DNA of 64,000 bases from an uncultured Lachnospiraceae bacterium (GTDB lineage Bacteria > Bacillota > Clostridia > Lachnospirales > Lachnospiraceae): contig CAMWFQ010000013.1 of the NCBI GenBank assembly GCA_947173495.1, forward strand, positions 1 through 64,000. The letters run 5' to 3'. The position numbers and the translations under genes are program-made. Below the pieces are notes generated by a model. The model was not told where the DNA came from. It did not search any database and saw only the letters and a list, made by a program, of their open reading frames with translations. Below are positions 55 to 54,916 of this stretch, piece after piece; positions within the stretch are counted from its first letter, which is position 1; every line of letters begins with the position of its first letter.

Positions 55-232
55 GGGATGCGTAAAGAAAATTGCTGCTGTGTAGCATGTATCCCGCGCG
101 CAGGCAGGGGATAGGAGCATTCCCCCGCTCGATTGCGCGGCCCGCAAGGAGAAGTTTGCCATAGAAGGTAGCATGCGTGCTGCGCGAAAGCAATGAGCAA
201 GACGGCTGCGAAGCAGACATTCATGATGACTC
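55..232 (+). repeat. Bulged-stem structured repeat, locus 1 (two units, second degenerate)
   Basis: Unit 1 has an outer stem (55-63 with 87-95, including G.T wobble pairs), a one-sided 10-nt bulge AAAGAAAATT (64-73), and an inner stem (74-78 with 82-86). A CGCGCG linker and a weaker G-rich/C-rich hairpin to about 131 follow. A second unit begins GATTGCGCGGCCCGCA near 131, matching the start of the second unit at locus 3 (3791). Its 3' half is decayed. The tail (about 200-232) also matches the tail of the decayed copy at 5228-5262. Bases 1-54 show no recognisable gene. Confidence 0.6.
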
Positions 233-637
233 CATAAGCTGACATGCAAAGCATCACAGCGTTTGACTGGGAATAGGCAATTTTTTTACCGAATTTTCTT
301 GAAAATAATCGGTAGATAGCGTATAATAAAAACCTAATTAAATTATTTCACATGTATTCTATCTGGTAAACTCTGAAGATTCTTATGCGAGATTCATTCT
401 GTGATTCATTCATTACCCAAATTTAAATCATTTTTTTATTATTAATCAGTGAAACGGTCTGCGAAATATATCAGTGCTTGAGAGGAAGACTATGTCTTTT
501 TTGAAAGAAATTGATTTAATAAAAAATATTTTTTGACGGATTATAATCGGGAACTTTGATAACTGAATAGACTTTGCACCTTGGCTATGGTATACTTATT
601 TTACTTCGCAATAGAAATACAGAAGGAGCGTGATAAA
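233..637. other. AT-rich intergenic region upstream of the heptad-repeat gene
   Basis: No convincing coding frame. The DNA is distinctly AT-rich from about 280 to 540. Bases 556-586 form one arm of an imperfect inverted repeat whose other arm (1385-1414) lies just past the heptad-repeat gene. A promoter for that gene probably lies here, but no pair of boxes stands out clearly enough to place. Confidence 0.4.
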
Positions 638-1363
638 ATGACATTGACAAATGAAGACTTAAAAGCGATTAGTATATGTATAGATGAAAGGCTGAACCCG
701 ATTAATGAACATCTGATTGAAATGGATGTCCGCCTGGATGGAATGGACAAGAGGTTTGACGGAATGGATGCCCGTCTGGACGGAATGGACAAAAGGTTTG
801 ACGGAATGGACAGGAGGTTTGACGGAATGGATGTCCGTCTGGACGGAATAGACAAGAGGTTTGACGGAATGGATGTCCGTCTGGATGGAATAGACAAGAG
901 GTTTGACGGAATGGATGTCCGTCTGGACGGAATGGACAGGAGGTTTGACGGAATGGATGTCCGCCTGGACGGAATAGACAGGAGGTTTGACGGAATGGAT
1001 GTTCGCCTGGACGGAATGGACAGGAGGTTTGACGGAATGGATGTCCGTCTGGACGGAATGGACAAAAGGTTTGACGGAATGGATGCCCGTCTGGACGGAA
1101 TGGACAAGAGGTTTGATGGAATAGATGTCCGTCTGGACGGAATGGACAAAAGGTTTGACGGAATCGATAAGCGGTTTTCGGGAATTGACAATAGGCTTGA
1201 CCTTATTGGGATTAAGCAGGAGCGCACTGCAAAGAAACTGGATGATCTGCAGCTTAATGTGAAAATTGCTGAAAAAAATATCAGCCACAAAATACATAAA
1301 CTTAATGATGAAATGGAAACAGTTATTGAAATATTAAAACAAAGTGAACTGATACCGCAATAA
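638..1363 (+). CDS. Heptad-repeat coiled-coil protein of unknown function
   Basis: A 241-residue protein. The start at 638 is chosen because AGAAGGAG lies just upstream; a longer reading from a TTG at 581 lacks a ribosome site. Residues about 31-177 are 21 almost perfect heptads of the form xR(L/F)DG(M/I)D, followed by two weaker ones and then a Lys/Glu-rich helical tail. The alternating Leu/Phe and Met/Ile spacing fits a parallel coiled coil with charged flanks. There is no signal peptide or membrane segment. At the DNA level this is a 42-bp (two-heptad) tandem repeat, so copy number is likely to vary between strains. The gene stands alone, is followed by a terminator, and is bracketed by an inverted repeat. 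Function is unknown; similar proteins occur in clostridia as hypotheticals. Confidence 0.75.
   Translation: MTLTNEDLKAISICIDERLNPINEHLIEMDVRLDGMDKRFDGMDARLDGMDKRFDGMDRRFDGMDVRLDGIDKRFDGMDVRLDGIDKRFDGMDVRLDGMDRRFDGMDVRLDGIDRRFDGMDVRLDGMDRRFDGMDVRLDGMDKRFDGMDARLDGMDKRFDGIDVRLDGMDKRFDGIDKRFSGIDNRLDLIGIKQERTAKKLDDLQLNVKIAEKNISHKIHKLNDEMETVIEILKQSELIPQ
728..1168 (+). repeat. Tandem repeat, 21-bp heptad unit in a 42-bp higher-order unit
   Basis: About 21 copies of a 21-nt unit encoding xR(L/F)DG(M/I)D. Alternating types (VRLDGMD and K/RRFDGMD) make a 42-bp period. Copies differ mainly at silent or M/I and K/R positions, consistent with expansion by slippage or unequal exchange while the frame is kept. 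Confidence 0.9.
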
Positions 1364-1392
1364 GGCGGGATACAATAGGAAAGCAGCCAGGT

Positions 1393-1429
1393 GCAAAGTC
1401 TGTTGAGTGATCAAAGACTTTGCCTTTTT
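1393..1429 (+). terminator. Intrinsic terminator after the heptad-repeat gene
   Basis: A perfect 9-bp stem GCAAAGTCT/AGACTTTGC with a 13-nt loop, followed by CTTTTTG. Confidence 0.85.
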
Positions 1430-1498
1430 GTCGGACAGGATAAATATATTACAGCCAGTTGACAGTCAGAAGCAGAAGTGATATATTTATTAAGAAAG

Positions 1499-1517
1499 AT
1501 GTAACAAATTTGTAATA
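1499..1517. promoter_or_regulatory. Dyad upstream of the NlpC/P60 gene
   Basis: GTAACAAATTTGTAAT is a near-perfect palindrome about 60 bp upstream of the start at 1576. It could be an operator, but the regulator is unknown and the role is inferred only from position. Confidence 0.3.
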
Positions 1518-1575
1518 ATTCATAGGATAAATAGAAAGAATTACTGATAGATAAACCAAAGAAATGGAGGAGATC

Positions 1576-2871
1576 ATGCAGAATAAAAATCTGAAAACAA
1601 TCAGCCGAACGGTATTTTATGCAATGTCAGCAGCTCTCTTTTTTACAGGTGCGAGCATGGATATATCAGCAGCGGATACAAATGGACTTCCCTCGGCGGG
1701 GATAGATTTCTTTTTGTCATCTAATGCTACCAGTGTAAAGAGCCTTAAGGATGAGGCTGATTCAGATTCTAAGATAGAAATTGAAGAAAATGAGGAAGAA
1801 GCAGACCCTACAGCAGAACCGACCCAGGAGCCAACGCCAGAACCTAAGTTGGATGAAGAAAAGGTAATAGAAGAGACTGCTACTCCTGTTACGAATAAGA
1901 GCATGAATCAGGTGGAGAGGGAACTGGAAGCCAGAAGAGAGGAAAAGGGCTTCAGATCATTGGTTATTGCCAAGGTAAACGACTATGTAAATGTGAGAAG
2001 TATACCCAGTGAAGAAGGAGAGATCCTGGGAAAGCTGTATGATAAGTCAGTAGGGGAGTTTATATCTGAAGAGGATGGCTGGTACGAAATTACTTCCGGA
2101 AGTGTAACAGGCTATGTGAAAGCCGAATATTGCGTGACAGGTGATGATGCGGTATCTCTCGCCAAGGAAGTGGGGACCAGGATCGCTACAGTTAAGACAA
2201 CAACGCTGAAGGTTCGTGAAGAGCCGGGAATGGATGCAGTGGTTCTGGGACTGATACCCATTGAGGATGAACTCCTTGTCACGGAAGAACTGGGAGACTG
2301 GGTGAAGGTAGATATCGAGGAAGGATTTGGCTATGTATCGGCTGACTATGTGACGCTTTCTACAGAGTTTGTGAAGGCAGAGTCTAAGGCAGAAGAGGAG
2401 GCCCGTCTTGCAAAGGAGGCAGAAGAGAGAAGGGCAGCCCAGGAGGCAGCTAGAAAGGCATCTTCCAGAAAATCTTCTTCTTCATCAGAAGCACCTGCGC
2501 CTGTGATTCCATCCGGTGGTGGAAGCGAATTGGGCGCGGCAGTGGCAAATTATGCATGTCAGTTTGTAGGAAATCCTTATGTATATGGAGGAACCAGTCT
2601 GACAAATGGTGCCGATTGTTCCGGATTTGTAATGAGTGTTTATAATAATTTCGGTGTCAGCCTGCCTCACTCGTCGGCGGCAGATAGAAATGTAGGTTCA
2701 GCAGTGGATGGGCTTTCCAATGCACAGCCGGGCGATATTGTATGTTACTCCGGACATGTGGGTATTTATATCGGAAACGGACAGATTGTTCATGCATCTA
2801 CATCCAAAACCGGTATCATTATTTCCAATGCAGGATATCGTTCCGTACTTTCTGTAAGAAGAATTTTCTAA
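1576..2871 (+). CDS. Secreted SH3-domain NlpC/P60 peptidoglycan endopeptidase
   Basis: A 431-residue exported wall hydrolase. The start at 1576 follows GGAGGAG. A signal peptide occupies about residues 1-33, ending near SAAD. An acidic Glu/Pro/Thr-rich linker follows. Two bacterial SH3 domains come next, each recognisable by a V(N/K)VR motif (VNVRSIPSEEG and LKVREEPGMD). A Lys/Ala/Glu-rich helix and Ser-rich spacer lead to a C-terminal NlpC/P60 domain. The expected catalytic residues are present: Cys348 in NGADCSGF, His394 in SGHVGIYIG and His406 in VHAS. The family cleaves stem-peptide bonds (typically D-Glu to meso-DAP or Lys). The likely role is cell separation or wall turnover. It is a single-gene unit closed by a terminator. 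Confidence 0.93.
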   Translation: MQNKNLKTISRTVFYAMSAALFFTGASMDISAADTNGLPSAGIDFFLSSNATSVKSLKDEADSDSKIEIEENEEEADPTAEPTQEPTPEPKLDEEKVIEETATPVTNKSMNQVERELEARREEKGFRSLVIAKVNDYVNVRSIPSEEGEILGKLYDKSVGEFISEEDGWYEITSGSVTGYVKAEYCVTGDDAVSLAKEVGTRIATVKTTTLKVREEPGMDAVVLGLIPIEDELLVTEELGDWVKVDIEEGFGYVSADYVTLSTEFVKAESKAEEEARLAKEAEERRAAQEAARKASSRKSSSSSEAPAPVIPSGGGSELGAAVANYACQFVGNPYVYGGTSLTNGADCSGFVMSVYNNFGVSLPHSSAADRNVGSAVDGLSNAQPGDIVCYSGHVGIYIGNGQIVHASTSKTGIIISNAGYRSVLSVRRIF

Positions 2872-2893
2872 TATAGAAAGAATTGACTTTAAA

Positions 2894-2924
2894 TGCCGTG
2901 TCTCTACAGATACGGCATTTTTTT
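2894..2924 (+). terminator. Intrinsic terminator of the NlpC/P60 gene
   Basis: ATGCCGTGTCTCTACAGATA is the first part of a hairpin closing with ATACGGCAT, followed by seven T. A bulged-stem element begins immediately downstream. Confidence 0.9.
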
Positions 2925-2990
2925 GGTGCACAGGGGTGTGTATGGAAAATTGCTGCTATGCAGCACACACCCCGCGCGACTTTCACCCGT
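2925..2990 (+). repeat. Bulged-stem structured repeat, locus 2
   Basis: The outer stem is GGGGTGTGT (2933-2941) with ACACACCCC (2965-2973). The one-sided bulge is ATGGAAAATT (2942-2951). The inner stem is GCTGC/GCAGC around TAT. CGCGCG follows. This is the clearest single copy: the 9-bp outer stem is perfect yet differs in sequence from other copies. Confidence 0.75.
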
Positions 2991-3559
2991 TAGAACGCTC
3001 ATTGGTCCGACGTACAGAAATCACATCTGAGGTTCAGAAATAAGGATAAGGCTGCCAGAAGAGATGAAGTCCAAAAGTTGTTGGAAGTATGAGGAGCGCA
3101 TATGTAAAAAGCATGTCAGAAGGTAATGGAACAGACGAAAAATTTGTTTTATTGACAGAAAACTTATCTGGTGGAAAGTAATCAGCAAACCCTGAAACTT
3201 GTACAAGATATACAAATTTGAAACTAAGATATTCAAAAAAGGGGAGATTTCAATGGGGAAGATTTAAATGTTATCCACATAAAAAAGATAATAAAGCTTG
3301 TATTTTCAAGTTATACACGAATTTATCCACATTATCCACCGACGAAATAACGAAATTTTAAGGTGGATAAATGTTGTGGAAAGAACAGATGTTTTGTGAA
3401 TTGTGATGAAAAGTAAAAATTTGAAATAGTTTGTCGAATAAGAGATTTGAGCAAATTGGGTCATATCAGGACTTTTAAAAAGTTTTGCAGAACGCTTGAC
3501 AATAAATTTATATTGTACTACAATACATGGTGTTGCAGATGAAAGCAATGAATGTCAAT
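2991..3559. other. Intergenic region with a DnaA-box-like cluster and possible decayed reading frame
   Basis: Between 3029 and 3236 one frame reads as a plausible helical, Lys/Gln-rich segment (RNKDKAARRDEVQKLLEV, then KACQKVMEQTK) but is broken by several stops. It may be a gene remnant. From 3271 to 3382 there is a cluster of DnaA-like 9-mers (listed separately). The remainder is AT-rich with no other gene seen. Confidence 0.4.
3271..3382. promoter_or_regulatory. Cluster of DnaA-box-like 9-mers
   Basis: Two perfect TTATCCACA sites (3271-3279 and 3323-3331), TTATACACG (3311-3319), TTATCCACC (3332-3340), GGTGGATAA on the opposite strand (3362-3370), and a weaker TGTGGAAA site near 3376. Five close matches in 100 bp of AT-rich DNA is far above chance. 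No dnaA, dnaN or plasmid replication gene is adjacent, so an origin, a DnaA-titration site or a DnaA-regulated region are all possible. Confidence 0.5.
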
Positions 3560-3633
3560 GTGCGTTTAGCTCAGCTGGATAGAGCGTTTGGCTACGGACC
3601 AAAAGGTCGGGGGTTCGAATCCTCTAACGCACG
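3560..3633 (+). tRNA. tRNA-Arg (anticodon ACG)
   Basis: Full cloverleaf: acceptor GTGCGTT with AACGCAC, D-arm GCTC...GAGC, anticodon stem TTTGG/CCAAA with loop CTACGGA (anticodon ACG), T-arm with GTTCGAATC, discriminator G. The 3' CCA is not encoded. A T-stem with G.T pairs is acceptable. Confidence 0.93.
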
Positions 3634-3668
3634 CTGTTTGTGCATATATGCACGCTTGTTATGAATGG

Positions 3669-3704
3669 CGGAAACACTGGTAGATTCAGCGTTTCCGTTT
3701 TTTT
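3669..3704 (+). terminator. Intrinsic terminator after tRNA-Arg
   Basis: The stem CGGAAAC/GTTTCCG is followed by seven T. The T-tract runs directly into ATGCGCAG, the start of a bulged-stem element. Confidence 0.8.
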
Positions 3705-3885
3705 ATGCGCAGCCCCATGCAGAGGAAGTATGCCGCTAAAGCGGCGCATGGGGCGCGCGGCGAGCAGGGAGAAAAAAGCCTCCCCTACTCGATTGCGCAG
3801 GCCCGCACAGAGGAATATGCCGCTAAAGCGGAGTGCGGGCCGTGCGGCCCCGCACGTGAGCAGGGAGAAAATCTGCCCTGTTTTT
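3705..3885 (+). repeat. Bulged-stem structured repeat, locus 3 (two tandem units)
   Basis: Unit 1: outer stem GCCCCATGC (3712-3720) with GCATGGGGC (3746-3754), bulge AGAGGAAGTAT, inner stem GCCGCT/AGCGGC. A GC-rich linker follows, then a second hairpin CGAGCAGGGAG... closing to 3791. Unit 2: outer stem GGCCCGCAC (3800-3808) with GTGCGGGCC (3833-3841), bulge AGAGGAATAT, inner stem GCCGCT/AGCGG. It ends in a hairpin CAGGG...CCCTG plus TTTTT (3861-3885) that can act as a terminator. The two outer stems differ by compensating changes. Confidence 0.75.
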
Positions 3886-3913
3886 AACAGAACTGCCTGC
3901 CTGATTAGCTGAT

Positions 3914-4978
3914 TCAGTCTGTCCGGCCAATCAGGCTGCTGATCAGATCAGGGACAGTGGTCAGTTCCCTGATCTTGCCGACATTTGCACCGCAGAAAAT
4001 GAGACCCTGATCCAGATTCCCTTTGACGGCATTGACCAGCGCCTGTGTAATACAATAGGGAATTTCCTTTGGATTACATTTTCTGATACAGTGGCAGCAG
4101 TGCTTAATTGGAATTGGGGCCTGCTCCATTTTCTGAATGAAAGCATTTCTGATGGCCCGGCCCGGCATACCAACCGGGCTTTTAATGATGACAACATCCT
4201 CCTCGGATGCATCAATATAAGCCTGCTTATAAGCCGGGGAAGCATCGCATTCTCTGGTGGCAACAAAACAGGTAGCGATCTGTACGCCATCGGCGCCAAG
4301 TGAAAGGATATGTTCAATATCGGACGGACCGGAAATGCCGCCGCCCACGACGACAGGGACAGATACGCCGTATTTGTCTTCATAAAGTTTCTTTTCTTCC
4401 AGGATCGCCTGAATTTCTCTGTCGAAATCAAGAGCCTGAATATTTTTCAGCTGTTCAGGAGTAAAGCCCAGATGCCCGCCGGCCAGAGGACCCTCTATCA
4501 CCAGCAGGTCGGCTGTGCGCTTATACTTTTTATCCCACATGCGAAGAATCAGGGAAGCGGCTTTTCTGGAAGAAACAATAGGAGCAATGGCAGTATCTGT
4601 CCCACTTACAAGTGCCGGAAGATCGGTGGGAAGACCGGCTCCGCACACGACCAGGTCCGCGCCTGCGCGGGCAGCAGCCTGTACATGGTCGGCATAATGC
4701 TGAAGAGCGGTCATGACATTGACGCCTACAAGGCCTCCTGCAGCCTGTTGTTTTGCGAGCTTCACATGTTTTTCAATAGCGCGGATATTACAACCCTGAA
4801 CGTCCGCTTCAAAATCCGGCTCATCATATCCGATCTGGGCGGAAGAAATCATTCCCACACCTCCTGCCCTGGCAACTGCGCCGGCCAGACCGGAGCGGCT
4901 TACGCCAACCCCCATACCGCCCTGGATAATGGGAATGCGGGCGTACTTTTTTCCTACTTTTAATGCCTGTAATTTCAT
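3914..4978 (-). CDS. Nitronate monooxygenase / FabK-like NAD(P)H flavin oxidoreductase
   Basis: A 354-residue TIM-barrel FMN protein. The start at 4978 follows GAGGAG and gives MKLQALKVGKKYARIPIIQG; a longer frame to 5047 has no ribosome site. Family hallmarks are visible: IIQGGMGVGVS near the N terminus, the AGGHLG segment carrying the conserved His, a VVVGGGISGP phosphate-binding loop, and GADGVQIATCFVATRE. Members either oxidise nitronates or act as enoyl-ACP reductase II (FabK). No fatty acid genes are adjacent, so the broader nitronate monooxygenase class is the safer call. The C-terminal extension with CCHCIRKCNP is Cys-rich. The gene is monocistronic and convergent with the tRNA-Arg region. 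Confidence 0.88.
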   Translation of the reverse strand: MKLQALKVGKKYARIPIIQGGMGVGVSRSGLAGAVARAGGVGMISSAQIGYDEPDFEADVQGCNIRAIEKHVKLAKQQAAGGLVGVNVMTALQHYADHVQAAARAGADLVVCGAGLPTDLPALVSGTDTAIAPIVSSRKAASLILRMWDKKYKRTADLLVIEGPLAGGHLGFTPEQLKNIQALDFDREIQAILEEKKLYEDKYGVSVPVVVGGGISGPSDIEHILSLGADGVQIATCFVATRECDASPAYKQAYIDASEEDVVIIKSPVGMPGRAIRNAFIQKMEQAPIPIKHCCHCIRKCNPKEIPYCITQALVNAVKGNLDQGLIFCGANVGKIRELTTVPDLISSLIGRTD

Positions 4979-5140
4979 AACGGAACTCCTCTTCTGATAA
5001 GTCTTTTGTTGTTTTTCATAAACCTGGAAATGATTATAAAGTATCAAAGAGATAATGTCAATGAAATGAGGTTATAATTATAATAATATATAGTTTTGAT
5101 AACTATATTGCGGCGAGAGCTGCCATCGATTATACTGAAA

Positions 5141-5172
5141 CTGTCGAACTGTCGAACTGTCGAACTGTCGAA
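5141..5172. repeat. Four tandem copies of CTGTCGAA
   Basis: Exact 8-bp unit repeated four times in the intergenic region between the oxidoreductase and Nudix genes. It is a likely slippage microsatellite; no role is evident. Confidence 0.8.
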
Positions 5173-5189
5173 CAGGAGGGTGGGAGGCT

Positions 5190-5262
5190 TTTTATGCGCA
5201 GGCCCGCATAAGGAAATCTGCCGGGCAATAAGACGGACGGCTGCGAAGCAGATATTAGAGAG
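5190..5262 (+). repeat. Bulged-stem structured repeat, locus 4 (degenerate)
   Basis: Starts with the common boundary CTTTTTATGCGCAG, followed by GCCCGCAT and the bulge-like AAGGAAAT. The 3' half of the outer stem is lost. The tail ACGGCTGCGAAGCAGA matches the tail at locus 1, so the two may have decayed from a shared longer form. It lies directly upstream of the Nudix gene. Confidence 0.45.
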
Positions 5263-5283
5263 TCCATTTGGAAGGAGTACGAT

Positions 5284-5718
5284 ATGCAGATAAAATTTTA
5301 TGAACAGGCCGAAGAGAGTTTACTGAAATTTGCTGTGATTATTTCCAGATCAGGCGGGAAGTGGGTCTTTTGTAAGCACAGAGAAAGGGACAGCTGGGAA
5401 TGCCCCGGAGGACACAGGGAGGAAGGGGAAACGATTCTGCAGACAGCACAAAGAGAGCTGATGGAGGAGACAGGCGCCCTTGTATTTGATCTGAAGCCTG
5501 TATGTGTATATTCTGTTACAGGAAAGACCAGAGTGAACGAAACAGGAGAGGAGTCATATGGAAAGCTTTTTTATGCCGACATTAAAAGCTTTGAGAAAGA
5601 ACTGCACAGTGAAATAGAAAAGATCGGGTTTTTTGATGAATTTCCTGAAAAATGGACCTACCCTCAGATACAGCCCTTTTTGCTTGCGGAGGTTCGGAGA
5701 AGACTGGGAGAGATCTGA
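5284..5718 (+). CDS. Nudix hydrolase
   Basis: A 144-residue protein. The Nudix box runs from Gly43 to Gly64 with the full GX5EX7REUXEEXGU pattern: Gly43, Glu49, Arg57-Glu58-Leu59, Glu61-Glu62 and Gly64. It hydrolyses a nucleoside diphosphate linked to another moiety; the substrate cannot be told from sequence. The short length and the ECPGG lead-in resemble MutT/8-oxo-dGTPase-type and related housecleaning enzymes. The start at 5284 follows AAGGAG. It appears monocistronic and faces the leftward ABC operon tail. Confidence 0.9.
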   Translation: MQIKFYEQAEESLLKFAVIISRSGGKWVFCKHRERDSWECPGGHREEGETILQTAQRELMEETGALVFDLKPVCVYSVTGKTRVNETGEESYGKLFYADIKSFEKELHSEIEKIGFFDEFPEKWTYPQIQPFLLAEVRRRLGEI

Positions 5719-5881
5719 AAGACATGGGAGGATTCTTAAAAAGAGAATTGGCAGCCGCGAAAATCCGGTATTCCAAGATCCTGCATCCAGAACGAAATCC
5801 GGAAACAAAAGGATCCGGCGGCTTTCAGATGCAAAGCTGCCGGATGATGCGTATAAATTCATGTACGGGTTTGGATCTGCT

Positions 5882-6724: not shown

Positions 6725-6736
6725 TAATCTGCCTCC

Positions 6737-9432: not shown

Positions 9433-9435
9433 TGT

Positions 9436-23810: not shown

Positions 23811-23821
23811 TACTCCATTGA

Positions 23822-23992
23822 CATGATAGAGGCGCGGAAGACAAGAGTACGCTTGCACGTTATCTCCGGCAGGAGAGGCAGCGGAAAGGGGATTTCGCCG
23901 AGGTGGGAAGAGCTCTGCCGGGCTTTCTCCGCCGGGCCGTGGGAGAATATTTCACGGACTGTCGCCCCTTATGGGGCGGAGCGCTGTTGTGA
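23822..23992 (+). ncRNA. Lysine riboswitch (L-box)
   Basis: Conserved L-box blocks appear in order: GATAGAGGCGCG, CAAGAGTA, GGAAAGGGGATTTCGCCGA, GCCGGGC, GGACTGTC and GGAGCGCTGTTGT. The P1 strands CATGATAG and CTGTTGTG pair with several wobbles. The first blocks match the Bacillus lysC leader closely. It precedes a terminator and an NhaC-type transporter, a known LYS-element target. High lysine should favour the terminator and lower transporter expression. Confidence 0.93.
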
Positions 23993-24012
23993 TCCGTCGA
24001 GTATGTTTACGA

Positions 24013-24042
24013 AGTCATGACAGAGTATGTCATGGCTTTTTT
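24013..24042 (+). terminator. Riboswitch expression-platform terminator
   Basis: Stem CATGACA/TGTCATG, extended to about 10 bp with flanking bases, loop GAGTA, then six T. The T-tract runs straight into ATGCGCAGG, the start of a bulged-stem element. Confidence 0.8.
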
Positions 24043-24211
24043 ATGCGCAGGGGCGCATATGGTAAATTGCTGCTGAAGCAGCATGCGCCCCGCGCGCGAG
24101 TAGAGGGAAAAGCGTCCTCTACTCGATTGCACACGGGCACCCAGAGGAAAAATGTCAGCAAAAGCTGACGGGTGCCCCGCGCGCGAGTAGGGAGAAAACC
24201 TTCCCTACTCG
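24041..24211 (+). repeat. Bulged-stem structured repeat, locus 5 (two tandem units)
   Basis: Unit 1: outer stem GGGGCGCAT (24050-24058) with ATGCGCCCC (24083-24091), bulge ATGGTAAATT, inner stem GCTGCT/AGCAGC. A CGCGCG linker and hairpin CGAGTAGAGG/CCTCTACTCG follow. Unit 2: outer stem GGGCACCC (24135-24142) with GGGTGCCC (24070-register partner at 24170-24177), bulge AGAGGAAAAAT, inner stem GTCAGC/GCTGAC. CGCGCG and hairpin CGAGTAGGG/CCCTACTCG follow. This is the best-preserved locus. It sits inside the lysine transporter leader between terminator and start codon. Confidence 0.8.
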
Positions 24212-24242
24212 ATTTTGGGACCGTAAACATGAAAGGAGACGG

Positions 24243-26679: not shown

Positions 26680-26755
26680 CTCCGGCGGATGCGCAGAAAA
26701 TGGGAGAAGAAGATGTCACTTCGTGACCCCATTTTCGCGCAGTTCAGCGCCGGAG
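26680..26755. repeat. 76-bp nested hairpin upstream of the GT-C-like gene
   Basis: Three nested stems: CTCCGGCG (26680-26687) with CGCCGGAG (26748-26755); GCGCAGAAAATGGG (26691-26704) with CCCATTTTCGCGC (26728-26740); GTCAC/GTGAC around TTC at the tip. It ends about 30 bases before the start at 26786, so it may be part of that mRNA leader. Confidence 0.75.
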
Positions 26756-26785
26756 CGCTGAACTTTCATAGTAAGGAAGCAGACA

Positions 26786-39969: not shown

Positions 39970-39997
39970 TTATCATTTTCCGCCTTTCCGAGGTATA

Positions 39998-40118
39998 GGA
40001 AACGACATTAGTCGTTTCCGTTTGCGCCGTCCACATGCTGCGAATGCAGCGAATCTCCCTGTGCGGACGTGTGCATCCATTTATAGCAAACGGCAAATAT
40101 TTTTGTCGTTTGCTATAA
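39998..40118 (-). repeat. Bulged-stem repeat, locus 8 (minus strand), with two flanking hairpins
   Basis: Read on the minus strand: a perfect 12-bp hairpin TTATAGCAAACG/CGTTTGCTATAA (40118-40081); then outer stem GTCCGCA/TGTGGAC (40068-40062 with 40035-40029, one G.T pair), bulge CAGGGAGATTC (11 nt) and inner stem GCTGC/GCAGC around ATTC; then a perfect hairpin GGAAACGAC/GTCGTTTCC (40019-39998). It lies after the methyltransferase gene and before the BMP gene, both on this strand. The T-tract typical of terminators is absent here. Confidence 0.6.
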
Positions 40119-45407: not shown

Positions 45408-45478
45408 GCGGGTGTAGTTCAATGGTAGAACACCAGCCTTCCAAGCTGGACACGTGGGTTCGATTCCCATCACCCGCT
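45408..45478 (+). tRNA. tRNA-Gly (anticodon TCC)
   Basis: Acceptor GCGGGTG/CACCCGC, short D-arm GTTC...GAAC, anticodon stem CCAGC/GCTGG with loop CTTCCAA (TCC), T-arm GTGGGTTCGATTCCCAT, discriminator T. It is 22 bases downstream of tRNA-Pro, so they are co-transcribed. Confidence 0.95.
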
Positions 45479-45479
45479 T

Positions 45480-45560
45480 CTTTTTATGCGCAGGGGCGCA
45501 CAGATGAAATTGCTGCTTGCGCAGCGTGCGCCACGCGCGTGCAGGGAGAAAGTCTTCCCC
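45480..45560 (+). repeat. Bulged-stem structured repeat, locus 6
   Basis: Begins two bases after tRNA-Gly with CTTTTTATGCGCAGG. Outer stem GGCGCAC (45495-45501) with GTGCGCC (45526-45532), bulge AGATGAAATT (45502-45511), inner stem GCTGC/GCAGC around TTGC. A CGCGCG-like linker and a weak GGGAG...TTCCC hairpin follow. Confidence 0.75.
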
Positions 45561-45573
45561 GTTTAATTATGTT

Positions 45574-46475: not shown

Positions 46476-47084
46476 ATGAAGCTTTATTTGGTCAGACACG
46501 GCGAAACAGACTGGAATACCCTGAGCAGAATCCAGGGGAATACAGACACGGTATTGAATGAAAAAGGCAGGCAGCAGGCGGCGGAGCTTGCCGATAAACT
46601 AAAAGAGGGGTATCAGATCAGGAGAATCTATACCAGCGACAGAAGGCGGGCGAGGGATACGGCCGGTATCATTGGAGAACGGCTGGGAATTATGCCGAAG
46701 GTGGAGAAGGGGCTGGAGGAAATTAATTTCGGCAGATGGGAGGGGTGTACCTGGCAGCAGGTGAAAGAAAAATTCCCGGAGGAATATCAAATCTGGCACC
46801 GTAACCGCCGGTATCATGTTCCGCCCTCAGGGGAATCCTATCAGCAGCTTCTGGAGCGTCTTTTACCCACAATAGATGATATTATAAATGAAAATGAACA
46901 GGAGGAAGAGGATCTGTTGGTAGTGACGCACAGCGCTGTGATCATGACGCTGATGTCCTATCTTTATGATACGCCTTTCGAAGATATGGCGAAGAACTAC
47001 AGAACCGGTAATACGGGGATCGTGGAGCTGGATCAGAAACTATTTTATCAGAGATATCAGGAAATGATGAAGGAGAATAAGTGA
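46476..47084 (+). CDS. Histidine phosphatase family protein (phosphoglycerate mutase/CobC-like)
   Basis: A 202-residue enzyme. The catalytic LVRHGETDWN holds the phospho-accepting His8. Arg in YTSDRRRARDTA, Glu in GLEEINFGRWEG and the second His in VVTHSAVI complete the site. The family ranges from phosphoglycerate mutases to broad phosphatases and alpha-ribazole phosphatase. The substrate is unclear. It begins a three-gene operon with a ROK kinase and a ribosomal GTPase. Confidence 0.92.
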   Translation: MKLYLVRHGETDWNTLSRIQGNTDTVLNEKGRQQAAELADKLKEGYQIRRIYTSDRRRARDTAGIIGERLGIMPKVEKGLEEINFGRWEGCTWQQVKEKFPEEYQIWHRNRRYHVPPSGESYQQLLERLLPTIDDIINENEQEEEDLLVVTHSAVIMTLMSYLYDTPFEDMAKNYRTGNTGIVELDQKLFYQRYQEMMKENK

Positions 47085-47085
47085 G

Positions 47086-47973: not shown

Positions 47974-50798
47974 AGCAGCTTGTGGCGGGAATAGTGGCCC
48001 ATGTGGATGCCGGTAAGACAACGCTGTCGGAAGCAATGCTCTATGAGAGTGGCAGTATCCGTAAGCTGGGCAGAGTGGACAGGAAGGACGCGTTTCTGGA
48101 TCACTATGCCCAGGAGAGGGCGCGGGGAATTACGATTTTTTCCAAACAGGCCCGTATTTTGCATGGGGATACGGAGATTACACTGCTTGATACGCCTGGA
48201 CACGTAGATTTTTCGGCGGAGATGGAGAGGACCCTGTGGGTGCTGGATGCCGCAGTTCTGGTTATCAGTGCAAGCGCCGGGATACAGGGACATACCCGGA
48301 CTTTGTGGAAGCTGCTGAAGAGCTGTGGGATTCCTGTTTTCATTTTTGTAAATAAGATGGATCAGCCGGATACCGACAGGGAAGCGATTCTGGAGAGTCT
48401 GAAGGCCGGACTGAGCGAATACTGCATTGATTTTACCTGCCAGGAATCGGAGGCCTTTTATGAAAACATTGCATGCAGCGATGAAACGGTGCTGGATGCG
48501 TTTTTGGATACCGGAAAAATCACAACAGAACAGATACAGAGACTGACAGGGGAAAGAAAAATCTTTCCCTGCTTTTTTGGTTCCGCGCTGAAGTTGTCCG
48601 GAGTGGAGGAGCTGCTGGATGGCCTCACAGTCTATACAGGACAAAGGAAGTATCCCGAGACATTCGGCGCAAGAATTTTTAAAATCACCCGGGATGATCA
48701 GAAAAACCGTCTGACTCATATGAAGATTACGGGCGGCAGGCTCAGAGCGAGGGAAATACTTTCTGTAGAAGGACAGTGGGAGGAAAAGGTTAATCAGATC
48801 AGAGTATATTCGGGAGAAAAATATGAGACTCTGCCGGAAGCAGGCGCCGGCAGGATCTGTGCGGTCACCGGGCTGACCAGGACCCGGGCGGGGGAAAGAC
48901 TGGGGTTTGAGGCAGAGTCCGGTCAGGTGTACAGGAAAAAGACCGGGGAAGGACAACCGGACGGTCTGCCCGGAAGCCGGATGTCTCTGCTTTCTCCTGT
49001 CTTATCCTATCGTGTAATTCTGCCCGATGAATGCGACCCGGCTCTTATGCTTCCGAAGCTCAGGCAGCTGGAAGAGGAAGATCCTCAGCTTCATATTGTA
49101 TGGGAGGGAAAGAGCCGGGAAATTCATGCGCAGCTTATGGGGAAGGTGCAGATGGAAGTGCTGGGAGAGCTGATCCGGGAGAGATTCGGGGTTAGTGTCT
49201 CGTTTGGGCAGGGGAGCATTGTTTACAGAGAAACCATTGCAGACAGGGTGGAAGGAGTAGGACATTTCGAACCCCTGCGCCACTACGCGGAGGTGCATCT
49301 TCTGCTGGAGCCGGGCGAAGAGGGGAGCGGTCTGCAGATTACTTCTGACTGCAGTGTGGATGAGCTGGATCTGAACTGGCAGAGGCTGATCCTGACCCAC
49401 TTGGAAGAAAAAGAGCATCAGGGAGTACTGACAGGAGCCGGTATCACAGATATGAAGATTACATTGAAATCGGGCCGGGCTCATTTAAAGCATACGGAAG
49501 GGGGAGATTTCAGGCAGGCAACCTACCGTGCGCTGCGCCAGGGACTGATGCAGGCAAAAAGTATTCTTCTGGAGCCCTGGTATGAGTTTCGTCTGGAGGT
49601 GCCATTGCAGACAGTGGGCCGCGCCATGGCGGATCTGGATAAAATGCAGGGAAGCTTTACGCTGGAACAGAGAGATGAGAGCGCAGTATTGAAAGGGACT
49701 GTCCCTGTGGCAGCGATGCAGGATTACCCCGGGGAGGTGGCAGCCTACACCAAAGGACTGGGACAGCTCTGGCTGGGGGTGAAGGGATATTACCCCTGCC
49801 ATAACACAGAAGAGGTGCTGGAAGAGACAGGATATGATCCTCTGCGGGATGCGGAAAATCCTGCGGGCTCTATCTTCTGCTCCCACGGAGCGGGATTTTA
49901 TGTGGAGTGGGACCAGGTGGCGGATTATATGCATCTGGAAAGCTGCCTGAAGGAGACGGGACAGAGCGGAGAAAGCCTGGACGTGAGCTTGAACGAGACG
50001 GGTAGAGCAGGAGCGCTGACAGTAAATGCCGGAAGGCGTATCAGAGAAAAAGAGCAGGAAGCGGCCGGGGATACGTGGATCGGGACAGAAGAGGTGGATG
50101 AGATTTTAAGCCGGGCCGTTCATGCCAACAAAAAGCAGGACAGAGCGGAACGCAGAGGCTGGCAAAAGCCCCGGAGGGAAGGGGAGAAGGAATGGTCCTG
50201 TAAGACAGAGCCGGACGGCAGGAAGGCAGGAAGATCTGTTCCGCTGAAAGAGAGCTATCTTCTGGTGGACGGATATAATGTGATTTTTGCATGGGAGGAG
50301 CTGAAAGAACTGGCGGAGCGGAATCTGGATGGGGCCAGAGGAGCGCTTCTGGATCTTCTCTGTAATTATCAGGCGTTAAAGGGCTGCAGTGTCATTGCCG
50401 TTTTTGACGCTTACCGTCTTGCGGGCCATGCAACGGAAGTACTGGATTATCACAACATTCATGTAGTGTTTACAAGGGAAGCGGAAACGGCGGATCAATA
50501 TATTGAGAAGTTTGCCCATGAAAACAGTCATAAGTATGATGTCATAGTAGCCACATCAGACGGTCTTGAGCAGATTATTATTGTGGGAGAAGGCTGCAGA
50601 CTGCTCTCATCACGGGAACTGAAGGAGGAAATTGAGCAGATTTGTACCCGCAGTGTACAGGATTTCAGGCAGGCGCATCCAGGAGAGAGGCTTTTTATGG
50701 AAGGCGTCTTATCTCAGGGGGCCGTAGAGGAGATAGAGTGGTTCAGGGATCATTATGAGCAGGAAGAGCAGGCCGGCGGCAGAGAATCCGGCATTTAA
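47970..50798 (+). CDS. TetM/EF-G-like ribosomal GTPase fused to a YacP/Rae1-type NYN nuclease domain
   Basis: A 942-residue fusion. Residues 1-about 640 match ribosomal protection GTPases: G1 AHVDAGKTT (10-18), G2 RGIT, G3 DTPGHVDF, G4 NKMD (about 129), then domains II, III, IV and V (VEGVGHFEPLRHYAEVHL, GSFTLEQRDESAV). A charged linker follows. Residues about 763-920 match YacP/Rae1: LLVDGYNVIFAWEEL, VIAVFDAYR, VVFTREAETADQYIEK and VATSDGLEQIIIVG, with the acidic residues of the NYN active site. Rae1 cuts mRNA in the ribosomal A site; the GTPase part would bind next to that site. Tetracycline resistance is possible, but a ribosome-rescue or quality-control role is equally plausible. Confidence 0.85.
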   Translation: MKQLVAGIVAHVDAGKTTLSEAMLYESGSIRKLGRVDRKDAFLDHYAQERARGITIFSKQARILHGDTEITLLDTPGHVDFSAEMERTLWVLDAAVLVISASAGIQGHTRTLWKLLKSCGIPVFIFVNKMDQPDTDREAILESLKAGLSEYCIDFTCQESEAFYENIACSDETVLDAFLDTGKITTEQIQRLTGERKIFPCFFGSALKLSGVEELLDGLTVYTGQRKYPETFGARIFKITRDDQKNRLTHMKITGGRLRAREILSVEGQWEEKVNQIRVYSGEKYETLPEAGAGRICAVTGLTRTRAGERLGFEAESGQVYRKKTGEGQPDGLPGSRMSLLSPVLSYRVILPDECDPALMLPKLRQLEEEDPQLHIVWEGKSREIHAQLMGKVQMEVLGELIRERFGVSVSFGQGSIVYRETIADRVEGVGHFEPLRHYAEVHLLLEPGEEGSGLQITSDCSVDELDLNWQRLILTHLEEKEHQGVLTGAGITDMKITLKSGRAHLKHTEGGDFRQATYRALRQGLMQAKSILLEPWYEFRLEVPLQTVGRAMADLDKMQGSFTLEQRDESAVLKGTVPVAAMQDYPGEVAAYTKGLGQLWLGVKGYYPCHNTEEVLEETGYDPLRDAENPAGSIFCSHGAGFYVEWDQVADYMHLESCLKETGQSGESLDVSLNETGRAGALTVNAGRRIREKEQEAAGDTWIGTEEVDEILSRAVHANKKQDRAERRGWQKPRREGEKEWSCKTEPDGRKAGRSVPLKESYLLVDGYNVIFAWEELKELAERNLDGARGALLDLLCNYQALKGCSVIAVFDAYRLAGHATEVLDYHNIHVVFTREAETADQYIEKFAHENSHKYDVIVATSDGLEQIIIVGEGCRLLSSRELKEEIEQICTRSVQDFRQAHPGERLFMEGVLSQGAVEEIEWFRDHYEQEEQAGGRESGI

Positions 50799-51925
50799 AA
50801 GCGGGAAAAAACAGGAAGCAGTCTGCGCAGCATGGAGCCGGCTTTGCGCTGAAGCCAGGCGATCCCCAGAGAGAGGCCGATTCCCACAAACAGATAAATC
50901 CATTTGCTGGCTTCCGACCCGCCGATAAGATAGACAAAGCCGATCTCGCTAAAGAACATTTCACGGTCGAATTCGCGGCAGAAAGGGGTATACAGGCTGC
51001 AAAGATAGAAAAAGCTCTTTACCAGCATGAAGCCGGCAATGTGATGCATCATGATAGAGTAGGTATTCCTTCCGATGTAGGTCATCTTGTCCGACAGATA
51101 GGGAATTTTGCTCATAATCCGTGCCACTCTGAGCCAGAAAGCGATTCCGGTTATTACGGTCAGATAGGGAACCAGGGGGCCGTTGGCAAAGCTGCTGACC
51201 CATACGGCGCTGAAATTCAGTCCGGCGCATAGAATGGTGATCAGAATCTGGATGCCCATAACGATCAGAAAATAGGGACCGTCTGTCATCCGGTCATAAG
51301 GCTCCAGCCTGGTACGATAAATTCTTCCCATCTGAAATCCCGGCATCATAAACAGGAGTCTTCCCGGAAGCTTATACCATCCCCATACGTGTCCTGTGGC
51401 GGCAAGCCAGACGGTGAGAACCCCTGCCAGCAGACAGCCGAAGAAGATCAGCCACTCAAAATCCAGCTTAAAAAGAGAGAGTATTTTGCGCATCAGCACA
51501 TTCAGAACCTCCAGCATGAAAAGAACCGGGACAAACCAGGCCGGAAAATTATACATAAACTGATGCCCATCCAGAAAGGGCGAGAGGAAAAGGGTCTTGA
51601 GGGAGAGCGATTCTCCTATGGAAAATCCTGCTCCATGAAGCAGCTCGGCGAGTACTCCATAAAAAAGGTTCCAGGCAAAATACGGAAGGAGAAGGGTGAA
51701 GCATTTTCCCATCAGGTATCCGCCGATCCGCTCCTGAGATTCCTCCTTATAGAAATAGCCGGATACAAACAGAAAAATAAATACATGAAAGGAATAGTAG
51801 GGGAATAATTCTCCCAGATCAAAAAGGTTATATCCCAGATGGCCTGCTGCAACAAAAATAATCCCAATGGCGGATAAAATGCGCAGCTCTCTGTTTTCCC
51901 TGAAGAGGGCAGTGTTCTTTTCCAT
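50795..51925 (-). CDS. Acyltransferase 3 family membrane protein
   Basis: A 376-residue protein with about ten membrane helices. N-terminal RELRILSAIGIIFVAAGHLGYN holds the family His; FHVFIFLFVSGYFY follows, as in O-acyltransferases that modify wall polymers, exopolysaccharides or lipids. The target is unknown. It converges with the GTPase gene and overlaps it by four bases at the stops. The start at 51925 follows AAAGGTGA. Confidence 0.87.
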   Translation of the reverse strand: MEKNTALFRENRELRILSAIGIIFVAAGHLGYNLFDLGELFPYYSFHVFIFLFVSGYFYKEESQERIGGYLMGKCFTLLLPYFAWNLFYGVLAELLHGAGFSIGESLSLKTLFLSPFLDGHQFMYNFPAWFVPVLFMLEVLNVLMRKILSLFKLDFEWLIFFGCLLAGVLTVWLAATGHVWGWYKLPGRLLFMMPGFQMGRIYRTRLEPYDRMTDGPYFLIVMGIQILITILCAGLNFSAVWVSSFANGPLVPYLTVITGIAFWLRVARIMSKIPYLSDKMTYIGRNTYSIMMHHIAGFMLVKSFFYLCSLYTPFCREFDREMFFSEIGFVYLIGGSEASKWIYLFVGIGLSLGIAWLQRKAGSMLRRLLPVFSRF

Positions 51926-52050
51926 AATGCTTCACCTTTGTATTTTTTATGTGACAGGAGTGATTTCGTCTGATTCTGTATAATCTTAAGCCTGTTTCCA
52001 GTATACAAAAAAATGTTGAACAATAAAAGCAAAAAAATTATAATAATGAT

Positions 52051-53106
52051 ATGAATACCACAGAAAAAATTCTTTTTATGCCTGTAAAAAAAATACTGCT
52101 TCTGTTAATTGCAGCTGCCTCGGGGTTTTTCCTTGCTTCCTGCGCATTTGGCGGCCGCGCTCCGGAGAGCGCTTACAGGGCGGAGGATTATCTGAAGGAG
52201 TCCTCCCTGATCGAATTTGACAGGTCTTTGCTGGATACGGTTCCAGCCAATACCTGTCAGACCTTAAGCGTTCCCACCTATATTACCAGAGTGGAGGAGC
52301 TCTATTTTATTGTGGACTGTTATAACAATCAGGTGATCTATCATGAAAATCTTTCAGACCCGCTGTATGAATGGCAGGTGATGACAGATGATATTTCCAT
52401 GGGGCATACGCTGGCCAGCGATGGAAAGGTTTATCTGATTGATGACACGGAAAACAACAGGATCCTGGTCATGGAAAAAGGCGAGAACAGCAGCGGTCAG
52501 CCGGTATTTATTCCTACCCAGGAGTTCAGGGAGATCGGCGAGAGGCCTCATTATATAATTTATGACGAATACACGGACACCTTTTATGCGTGGAGCTCCT
52601 TAAGCGGAGAAATGTACCTGTTCCGCCATCCGGAGGACAGCACCCGGATGTATCTTACGGAGATCCGTTCTGTCGAGTCTCTGAATCATGTGTATGTGAG
52701 ATCCTTCACGATTGTGGAGGACAGCATTTACTTTGTGTCCGGTAATTCCAGTATTATTGAGGCGGATCTCTACAGCTTCAGGATTAAAAAGGAATATCCG
52801 GTTCCGCCGGAAATGGCGGGGATGATCCAGATAACCCCCATAGGAGATTACTTCTATATCACCATATCCACTGACAGCACCGGCAGTCAGGACTATGCGA
52901 CCATACTCCGGACGCAAAGACTGGAAGATCTGATGTCCGGCCATTATGAAGATGTATATGAGCACTTTATAGGAGGAGGGACGCCGTATTACATTACAAA
53001 AATAGATGACGCATGGTATCTTACGGAGCATCGCGTCCCCGGACACTCGATATGGAGCTTCCAGGTGGAAGATGATAAAATAACCAATGTTATATCTATA
53101 TACTGA
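52051..53106 (+). CDS. Lipoprotein of unknown function, beta-propeller-like
   Basis: A 351-residue lipoprotein; lipobox FLASC gives lipidated Cys31 (or Cys22 if translation starts at the internal ATG 52078; neither start has a clear ribosome site). The mature part shows repeating short beta blades such as VYLIDDTENNRILVMEK, FYAWSSLSGEMYLFR and SIYFVSGNSSIIEADLYSF. This suggests a beta-propeller. No family is recognised. It precedes a GT-C-like membrane protein by 27 bases, so the two are probably in one operon. Confidence 0.65.
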   Translation: MNTTEKILFMPVKKILLLLIAAASGFFLASCAFGGRAPESAYRAEDYLKESSLIEFDRSLLDTVPANTCQTLSVPTYITRVEELYFIVDCYNNQVIYHENLSDPLYEWQVMTDDISMGHTLASDGKVYLIDDTENNRILVMEKGENSSGQPVFIPTQEFREIGERPHYIIYDEYTDTFYAWSSLSGEMYLFRHPEDSTRMYLTEIRSVESLNHVYVRSFTIVEDSIYFVSGNSSIIEADLYSFRIKKEYPVPPEMAGMIQITPIGDYFYITISTDSTGSQDYATILRTQRLEDLMSGHYEDVYEHFIGGGTPYYITKIDDAWYLTEHRVPGHSIWSFQVEDDKITNVISIY

Positions 53107-53133
53107 TGACGATCTGCGTGAAAGGATAAACCA

Positions 53134-54732
53134 ATGAAGAAGCTGTGTTTAAAAACGACTTCCCTGTTGAAGGAGAAAGGCCAAAAGAAAACAGAGATGA
53201 GCCTGGTTCTGATGACCCTGCTGAGCTGTATGGTCACGGCTCTGGCCCAGGGCAGCAGTTTCTTTTATGTTTCTCATTACACAAAGGTTTTGGTCATTAC
53301 CTGTATTTTCTGCGTCTATGCCGGTTGCTTCCTGTTCCTGAGACAGGCGGGAGCTCTCACAGAAGACAGGGGCGTGTTTCTGATCGTCCTGCTGGGAGTG
53401 CTTTTCCGGTGCAGCTATGTGCTTCTGTCCGGACTTTATGAGCGTCAGCACGATGCGGGCGCCTATACGGGTATGGGGACGGAATTTATCAATCCCGGTC
53501 ATATCGGTTATATTGAATATATTTACAAGTTTCATCATCTGCCCGATCTGAACCCCTATGAACTCTTTGCCTACTATCATCCGCCGCTGCACCACATTCT
53601 TTCCGTGATATGGCTGCGTCTGAATATTCTTCTGGGGGTAAGCGAAGAGTTGGCGTTTGAAAATCTGCAGATCCTTCCGCTGCTTTATTCCAGCCTCTGT
53701 ATGACAGTTACCTGGAAGATCCTGAAGGTTCTTCAGATACAGGGAAAAGGGTTGTTGACAGGCGTTGCCTTTATGGCTTTTCATCCGGCAACGGTCATTA
53801 TGGCGGGAAGTGTCAATAATGATATGCTGACCATTCTTTTCATGTGTCTGATCATTCTGGAATCGCTCAGGTGGATTCGCAATAAGGATCTGCCGGGGCT
53901 GATCCGTCTGGCGCTGTACATAGGATTCGGGATGATTACCAAGCTCAACAGTGCTGTTTTAGCGCTTCCCATCGGCCTGATATTCCTGATGCATTTTGTT
54001 TCGGTAATCCGCAGCAAAGAGAGGCCGCTTCTGTTGAAGTGGATCAGACATTACTGCCTATTCGGACTGACAGCCGCGCCTGTGGGCCTGAGCTGGATTG
54101 TGAGAAATCTGGTGCGGTTTAAAGAAAAGCCCGGCGTTCCCGTTCCGGGGGAGTCTTCTCCCATGTATACGGCAGGCTACAGTATCTGGAGCAGGCTGGG
54201 GATTCCGGCATTTTCGGACTGGCATTTTGACTTTCCCTTCCATCCGATCAGTGCCGGCGCGTGCAATAATACCTGGGTGATTATGTTCCATACGTCTCTG
54301 TTTGCGGAAGAATACCCTGCCGATTTACCGGATATCCTGCTGGTACTGTGTCAGATTACATTTGTCCTGGCTGTGAGTCTTGCAATAGCAACAGTTATTT
54401 TACTGGCAGCAGTTCTTCTGGACAAAGAAACAGGGAAAGAAGACAGAGTGTTTTTAATGACGGGTTACGTGGTCATGCTGATCTCCTTCGCAGCTTTTGT
54501 GGTCATTTATCCTTATACCTGCAGCAGTGATTTCCGTTATGTTGCAATCTGTCTTGTCTACATCGCTATTGCGCTGGGACTGGGGAACAAGTATTATCTT
54601 TCGCCAACAGTTATGCGTGGATCCGGTGGCAAGGGCCGGATAAAATCCTGGTGTATGCGCGCTGTGAACGGAGGAATTATACTGTTTCTGACATTTATTA
54701 CGCTGATTTATATATTTTGGGAACGTTGGTAA
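53134..54732 (+). CDS. GT-C-type membrane glycosyltransferase (GT39/ArnT-like)
   Basis: A 532-residue protein with about 11 helices, starting at 53134 after AAAGGA. The first outer loop has YERQHDAGAYTG, with the Asp expected of GT-C enzymes, then YYHPPLHHILSVIW. GSVNNDMLTILFM is also typical of the mannosyltransferase/ArnT-like superfamily. It would move a sugar from a polyprenyl phosphate to an outside acceptor. It is linked to the preceding lipoprotein gene. Confidence 0.75.
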   Translation: MKKLCLKTTSLLKEKGQKKTEMSLVLMTLLSCMVTALAQGSSFFYVSHYTKVLVITCIFCVYAGCFLFLRQAGALTEDRGVFLIVLLGVLFRCSYVLLSGLYERQHDAGAYTGMGTEFINPGHIGYIEYIYKFHHLPDLNPYELFAYYHPPLHHILSVIWLRLNILLGVSEELAFENLQILPLLYSSLCMTVTWKILKVLQIQGKGLLTGVAFMAFHPATVIMAGSVNNDMLTILFMCLIILESLRWIRNKDLPGLIRLALYIGFGMITKLNSAVLALPIGLIFLMHFVSVIRSKERPLLLKWIRHYCLFGLTAAPVGLSWIVRNLVRFKEKPGVPVPGESSPMYTAGYSIWSRLGIPAFSDWHFDFPFHPISAGACNNTWVIMFHTSLFAEEYPADLPDILLVLCQITFVLAVSLAIATVILLAAVLLDKETGKEDRVFLMTGYVVMLISFAAFVVIYPYTCSSDFRYVAICLVYIAIALGLGNKYYLSPTVMRGSGGKGRIKSWCMRAVNGGIILFLTFITLIYIFWERW

Positions 54733-54812
54733 AAAGTAATTGACAAGCCCTGGAACATGTGATACGCTAAACCCACTTACCGCTGAAAACTCCAATTGAA
54801 TGAAACAGATGA

Positions 54813-54847
54813 CCTGTCTATGGAAAATTCCATGGGCAGGTTTTTTT
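54813..54847 (+). terminator. Intrinsic terminator after the GT-C-like gene
   Basis: CCTGTCTATGGA pairs with TCCATGGGCAGG (one G.T) around AAAT, followed by seven T and then GCGCAG of a bulged-stem element. Confidence 0.85.
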
Positions 54848-54916
54848 GCGCAGAGACATACAGGGAAATTGTATGCTCTACTATGCTCTGCGCGGGCAGG
54901 GAGAATTTTCCCGGCC
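54848..54916 (+). repeat. Bulged-stem structured repeat, locus 7 (variant)
   Basis: Starts at the T-tract/GCGCAG boundary. Outer stem GCGCAGAG with CTCTGCGC plus CATA/TATG; bulge region CAGGGAAATT. The inner stem is poorly formed. It is followed by GGGCAGGGAGAATTTTCCCG, the second hairpin. It sits in the leader of the His/Cys-repeat gene. Confidence 0.55.

Follow-up and report, generated by a model that had tools for sequence, protein, structure and literature searches.

The DNA analyzed here (the window) comprises positions 1-64,000 of contig CAMWFQ010000013.1, from assembly GCA_947173495.1 of an uncultured Lachnospiraceae bacterium (the host genome; 4.58 Mb in 52 contigs, 97.4% complete), and it carries members of a dispersed family of bulged-hairpin repeats. 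A first-pass annotation, made from the letters of the window alone, had proposed such a family; it was confirmed, and proved bigger than first claimed, with at least 150 copies in the host genome and a distribution across the family Lachnospiraceae. The repeat unit is about 88 nt long and consists of hairpin A followed by hairpin B, and tandem copies are frequent. Hairpin A has a GCGC clamp, an outer stem of 9 bp (8-9 bp in the intact units of the window), a bulge of 10-11 nt on the 5' side and an inner stem of 5-6 bp. The clamp forms between the 5' and 3' copies of GCGC and leaves a single A unpaired; the segment earlier described as a CGCGCG linker is in fact this clamp. Hairpin B, CGAGTAGGG...CCCTACTCG, is terminated by ATT and resembles a terminator. 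The unit begins with TATGCGCA and ends with CTACTCGATT, and hairpin A is preceded chiefly by TAT, in some units by GAT, AAT or CAT. The bulge was 10 or 11 nt long in 85 of the 89 units of a cross-genome set. A model-free scan of the window for the bare architecture (outer stem of at least 7, 5' bulge of 9-12, inner stem of at least 5) gave six matches, all on the plus strand; six Markov sequences gave 1, 0, 0, 2, 0 and 1.

Two covariance models were used, R1 with 14 units typed from host-genome sequence and R2 with 63 units from the window, genus and family. The window was scored with R2 without filters, and these scores are partly by construction because the R2 alignment includes eight window units. 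A lysine riboswitch (23819-23994, plus strand; RF00168, 98.7 bits) has a terminator T-tract ending at about 24041, directly followed by an array of two full units on the same strand, 24042-24128 (R2 92.7 bits; fold z -6.1) and 24129-24214 (59.0 bits; z -6.7), the second belonging to another subfamily with a GGGCACCC stem. Also on the plus strand, a full unit at 3704-3794 (90.2 bits; z -4.8) stands after the terminator downstream of a tRNA-Arg and is followed by a tandem second unit represented by hairpin A (3795-3845; 43.1 bits). The minimum-energy folds of 24042, 24129 and 3704 were near the drawn structure; the imperfect parts of these intact units are the clamp in 24129 and hairpin B in 3704. 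Just after a tRNA-Gly (45408-45478) and a CTTCTTTTT tract lies a full-length plus-strand unit whose hairpin B has decayed (45485-45568; 66.6 bits; z -2.1), and right after a terminator T7 stands a plus-strand hairpin A whose second hairpin is missing (2925-2980; 49.6 bits over 2925-3003; match ending at query position 53; z -3.7).

Other copies in the window are more decayed or divergent. The plus-strand unit at 47-134 (49.1 bits) retains both hairpins and has lost its 5' clamp; as the first-pass annotation had proposed, its outer arms can pair by G.T wobbles, but the minimum-energy fold of the whole stretch differs from the drawn one. It is followed by a probable, weak tandem second unit, truncated at the 3' side (134-186, plus; blast match to the unit library over query positions 2-54 of 89, 39.7 bits; R2 9.2 bits over 135-185). 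A divergent unit with a GGATGCACA start and a different hairpin B lies on the minus strand (39994-40077; 54.2 bits; z -5.9), and a divergent relative overlooked at first reading, with a GGATGCGCA start and again a different hairpin B, lies on the plus strand at 26688-26767 (55.3 bits; z -6.3), not directly behind a terminator T-tract. Of the eight loci originally listed, six were recovered by both models and clear by R2 (47-134, 2925, 3704, 24042, 45485 and 40077-39994 minus), the one at 54848 was a marginal decayed relative after a terminator T7 (54845-54919, plus; 16.6 bits, E 0.11; z -4.3), and the one at 5190 was a unit start only (5194-5221, plus; query 1-28 of 90). The statement that each outer stem keeps its complement was wrong at this last locus, where only the first 28 nt or so remain, 3' arms and stems are lacking and the fold is like that of shuffles (z 0.19). 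The T(n)ATGCGCA start ascribed to most loci was found at 3705, 5190, 24041 and 45480.

Beyond the window, the covariance-model search of the genome and its relatives found copies throughout the family. The figure of at least 150 host-genome copies was obtained with R1, 150 candidates being scored, and the pattern TTTATGCGCA occurred 106 times in this genome versus 3 for the reversed pattern. Twenty-four of 60 searched genomes were positive, namely 23 of 36 from the genus (host included) and 1 of 24 taken from the order outside Lachnospiraceae, with 0 to at least 72 R1 matches per genome. In a search of 397 Lachnospiraceae genomes, with the best 11 candidates scored in each, 101 genomes and 90 of 334 genera were positive. 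Only two of 398 genomes sampled from the phylum were positive with R2 (best 11 candidates each), the host and another Lachnospiraceae genome, in a sample whose Lachnospiraceae members were not fully counted. A gapped exact pattern matched at least 107 stretches in the genomes of named species. Among the 80 sources listed for these matches, most were Lachnospiraceae or genera assigned there, and the rest were labeled bacterium, Clostridia, Clostridiales, Clostridium, Eubacterium and, once, Clostridiaceae. The same pattern had no match in viral contigs, and the 24042-24214 array had none among plasmid or phage records; on these searches, phage or plasmid cargo was rejected.

Membership in a known RNA family was rejected on Rfam searches. 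With Rfam 15, none of the units in the window rose above a gathering cut-off, a search of 24030-24230 at relaxed E-value gave chance-level scores only, and the units in eight loci of other genera were unmatched, T-box, tRNA and one sub-threshold PreQ1 matches lying elsewhere in those loci. We found no description of the repeat in the openly readable literature (subscription papers and supplements being outside reach), including a text search for its sequence stretches. None of the stem-loop families in the accessible part of PMC2267715 matched the unit. A comparative screen of gut bacteria for candidate structured RNAs of human microbiomes reports palindromic candidates, some of them thought to be terminators or repetitive extragenic palindromes (REPs); by the text descriptions, with supplementary models not compared, none of them matched the unit (PMC8040213, as far as its text is accessible). 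As far as these searches reach, the repeat is real, widespread within the family and unnamed.

The most regular property of the units is their position. A terminator hairpin and a T-rich tract ending at most 14 nt upstream were found at 54 of 79 host-genome arrays, compared with 3.2 at random places; 3 of 82 arrays had been left out for being too near a stretch end, and the unit behind the tRNA-Gly and its T-tract is one of the misses. When the unit's own letters were excluded and hairpin loops of up to 25 nt were allowed, 69 of 79 arrays passed (6.1 at random). The pattern TTTATGCGCA had supplied 19 of the 82 arrays; with these excluded and T's counted only before the GCGC start, 42, 50 and 52 of 60 passed with loops of up to 9, 15 and 25 nt, respectively (2.0, 2.8 and 4.7 at random). 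The same placement was seen at 80 loci found elsewhere with a pattern that fixed the TATGCGCA start, the GCGC and hairpin B's left arm and nothing upstream: 74 of 84 array-first units followed a terminator hairpin and T-tract, with 5.4 expected. Thus, the terminator targeting suspected at first was supported genome-wide and across genera. Besides the lysine riboswitch of the window, T-box leaders immediately precede units in the loci L191 (E 7.5e-18) and L184 (E 1.2e-15), both below the Rfam gathering score, and a further one precedes a unit in genome G009, where the leader is taken as a T-box and the gene as thrS by their sequence motifs. A second dispersed repeat, approximately ACAATAAGCYG...GCGTTYGTT, was also noticed right behind terminators (rpmB and thrS downstream regions, e.g., L207, L222, L223, L248 and L249), sometimes at the exact site that holds the hairpin unit in another species.

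The fixed orientation behind terminators, including those of lysine riboswitch and T-box leaders, where the unit comes after the attenuator and ahead of the start codon, also speaks for a different explanation: a cis-acting RNA made on terminator read-through, which would provide a second stop or a site of processing, or would stabilize the 5' end of the downstream mRNA. We consider this unlikely, and less likely than a mobile element. Among the 75 of 82 arrays that could be classed by a crude open reading frame (ORF) caller, 36 had codirectional, 18 convergent, 12 divergent and 9 antisense neighbors, and many of the divergent and antisense rows are suspected miscalls. Units between convergent genes count against a cis-acting RNA, so far as these crude calls go; and since the next gene can be codirectional or convergent by the same calls, the unit seems tied to the upstream terminator and not to the downstream gene. 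The earlier proposal of an RNA processed from read-through transcripts found no support in the sequence data.

Strong covariation, together with the conservation of hairpin B, is the other argument for a cis-acting RNA. In three alignments, of 14 host-genome units, of 63 units from the window, genus and family, and of 88 distinct units from the 80 pattern-found loci, 15, 27 and 24 of 28 pairs, respectively, had changed on both sides, and in each case 0 of 500 shuffles reached the covariation score. The check for covariation in wide alignments was therefore clearly positive. The 88-unit set, whose alignment was fitted to the structure, counts specially because the search pattern behind it left the outer and inner stems free. 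If resident copies were held by RNA pairing, G.T would be expected above A.C. In the host genome, however, G.T and A.C stood at 20:21 in hairpin A and at 35:18 in hairpin B, or 17:16 without its closing pair (61 of 68 units, 7 rows with less than 85% pairing or too few cells having been dropped). The cross-genome 89-unit set gave 5:3 in the clamp, 24:30 in the outer stem and 57:11 in hairpin B, this last ratio being biased because the search pattern fixed the left arm. In the unfiltered 63-unit set, hairpin A had 19 G.T versus 38 A.C, up to 17 of the latter from one clamp pair. In contrast, the acceptor stems of 21 tRNAs in the same sequences gave 12:2 (Fisher p 0.018 vs. 37:37). There is thus no G.T excess in the hairpin A stems of resident copies, which argues against a cis-acting RNA, and near-equal G.T and A.C would fit the neutral decay of a once-perfect hairpin. 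We attribute the covariation between lineages to the requirements of propagation and not to a function in the host. Selection on pairing, the simplest reading offered at first, therefore holds for the compensated stem changes between lineages but not for resident copies, which look as in neutral decay.

Comparison of orthologous sites pointed in the same direction. Behind the rpmB terminator, a unit was present in the host genome alone among 30 genomes of the genus inspected by eye over 240 nt, out of 37 genomes with a match. At the thrS T-box, a unit was present in G009 and absent from G034, G008, G003 and G019, G013 held a possible relic, and five further genomes were without a T-box in the stretch read; the flanks of G034 and G009 match at 90 and 83% on the two sides. 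A cis-acting RNA sits poorly with this lack of conservation at the two places examined (1 of 30 at rpmB; thrS). At the lysine-riboswitch locus, G012, with flanks 88.9 and 91.1% identical, carries a unit of another subfamily. Arrays contain identical tandem units, in-phase order, chimeras with mismatched arms and some broken stems, and the existence of truncated, chimeric and broken copies likewise disfavors a cis-acting RNA. In the thrS comparison we also noticed, near the thrS start, a stretch of about 34 nt (L062, minus strand; about 849-883 of the query) that occurs many times over in G009, G034, G003, G008 and G013 and is another dispersed repeat.

Partial copies were more often cut at the 3' side, by 28 versus 8 in the host genome and by 12 versus 6 in 107 stretches matched by the gapped pattern, where a reversed-sequence control gave no match; this excess is suggestive only, because some partial copies are halves of internally deleted units and some host-genome loci were chosen by 5' sequence. 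Such an excess might reflect insertion in which the 5' end is fixed at the T-tract, and erosion away from the terminator would look alike. The 5' junction at T-tracts and the predominance of 3'-truncated copies, several of them such halves, are also what retroposition would explain, in which an antisense RNA ending ...UGCGCAUAAAA anneals to the 3' end of T-tract DNA and is reverse transcribed, so that copies would share one 5' junction and have a ragged 3' end. We regard retroposition as improbable, given that no group II maturase was found in the host genome (a search covering no other reverse transcriptases), that the 5' sequence had served to select the loci of 19 of the 82 arrays and that erosion may just be less constrained at the 3' side than next to the terminator.

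Considering these observations together, the repeats are probably mobile, non-autonomous DNA elements that form a Lachnospiraceae family inserted 3' of terminators. Directly observed were the architecture and its covariation, the copy number and placement, the lineage-specific presence of units at two orthologous sites and the symmetric decay. A unit of about 88 nt would insert in a single orientation directly behind the T-tract of an intrinsic terminator (those of riboswitches and T-boxes included) or behind the T-tract that follows a tRNA, and would thereby spare neighboring genes; the presence differences between relatives would then be gains by transposition. Because hairpin B with its ATT is terminator-like, it may be the target of the next unit, which would lead to in-phase tandem arrays. 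A mobilizing enzyme would act in trans, and if it needs the hairpins, source copies would keep their pairing and resident copies would decay.

Several observations weigh against a mobile element. L064 and L087, from close species, carry a unit at the same position, and two matches came from G042, a genome of another family of the order. The G031, rpmB and thrS comparisons yielded no clean empty site with exact, alignable junctions from which a target-site duplication could be read, because the intergenic DNA of the relatives is too diverged or occupied by other sequence. G.T exceeded A.C in the inner stem of the 89-unit set (14:9) and in hairpin B of the 63-unit set (32 vs. 19, 13 of the 32 from the closing pair), and the tRNA control is small. 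The 28 best loci from other genera show strong sequence conservation of hairpin B, which could hint at function. No vehicle was seen, since the viral contigs (one exact pattern) and the phage and plasmid records (one array) were without match. Finally, no mobilizing gene was found in a search that covered Y1 transposases and group II maturases and no other enzymes: Y1 transposases occurred in 9 of 17 copy-rich versus 9 of 16 copy-free genomes and maturases in 4 of 17 versus 5 of 16, without association in either case. Here copy-free means no R1 match among the strictly filtered best candidates of the genus and family searches, and G060 was classed as copy-rich from blast matches, without R1.

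The same gene searches bear on the known systems that the repeat resembles. Like REP, BIME and REPIN sequences and their RAYT transposases, as far as described in the accessible text of PMC2817692 and PMC6006769, the units are short, high-copy, intergenic, GC-rich imperfect palindromes with mosaic tandem arrays and genome-specific subfamilies. Such likeness favors the view that the units are REP-like palindromes and depend for their movement on a Y1 (RAYT/IS200-type) transposase, which the host genome has lost or which is supplied from elsewhere, and Y1 proteins are encoded by G028, G060 and seven other copy-rich genomes. This is nevertheless very improbable: Y1 (PF01797) was found neither in the 97.4% complete host genome nor in 8 of the 17 copy-rich genomes in all, and it is equally common in copy-free genomes. 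REPs are defined by GTAG or GTGG located 0-2 nt 5' of the hairpin foot and form long hairpins with a 1-3-nt bulge (PMC6006769, accessible part). Unlike these, the units have no GT(A/G)G head, two different hairpins and a one-sided bulge of 10-11 nt, stand in direct and not inverted tandem, follow terminators and show no association with Y1 transposase. A GTAG does occur inside the hairpin B stem, but its T pairs with an A, and 13 of 63 sequences have C-G in place of this pair; the T therefore looks like a member of a base pair and not like part of a REP-type head. REP/RAYT was rejected because the host genome has no Y1 gene and because there is no association with copy number; Y1 absence also counts against elements derived from IS200/IS605. 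Group IIC (Bacterial-C) introns likewise insert right after Rho-independent terminators and spare host genes (PMC8919778, accessible part). The unit, however, is too small at about 88 nt for a maturase gene, no group II maturase (PF08388) was found in the host genome, and Rfam intron families had no match within the window; group II introns were thus rejected, there being also no association with copy number.

Miniature inverted-repeat transposable elements (MITEs) such as RUP and Correia elements have inverted-repeat ends. In the alignments the unit has no terminal inverted repeats of this kind, since its two ends, TATGCGCA and CTACTCGATT, do not mirror one another as inverted copies would. 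The likeness to MITEs such as RUP and Correia elements, both named in PMC2817692 (accessible part), lies in a small, non-coding, dispersed unit that would need a trans-acting enzyme. The placement of the repeat is like that of group IIC introns and its lifestyle like that of REPs, yet it lacks defining traits of both. It is tempting to imagine a new class of mobile element that reads terminators, with polar insertion at T-tracts (fixed 5' and ragged 3' end), its own terminator-like landing hairpin and a Lachnospiraceae enzyme, possibly a T-tract-primed reverse transcriptase; we regard this as a speculative and rather doubtful extension. Whatever its mover, this is a structured repeat that reaches 90 of the 334 genera sampled from a major family of gut bacteria, is absent from Rfam and fits no repeat family tested. 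It shapes the DNA behind many terminators and within riboswitch and T-box leaders, and it is a second, far smaller occupant of the niche next to terminators that group IIC introns are known to use. A strong covariation signal is in itself no proof of a functional RNA; here, pairing seems to be part of the element's spread.

Divergent relatives like those at 26688-26767 and 39994-40077 were also seen in the loci L079, L080, L082, L083, L159 (about 11033, minus), L276 (about 2320, minus) and L393. Their clamp and hairpin A are similar to those of the units and their hairpin B is quite different; most start with GGATGCRCA or near it, and several have an extra hairpin and a CGCTCC or GCCTCCGGC-like stretch immediately upstream. 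In some copies (L082 and L276) this upstream stretch could possibly pair with the left arm of the outer stem and form a switch. Within the window, GACGGCTGCGAAGCAGA is common to 201-217 and 5236-5252, just 3' of two decayed units, and is possibly a third dispersed repeat. An ORF at 581-1363 contains many GACGGAATGGA-type repeats, and its predicted protein is repetitive.

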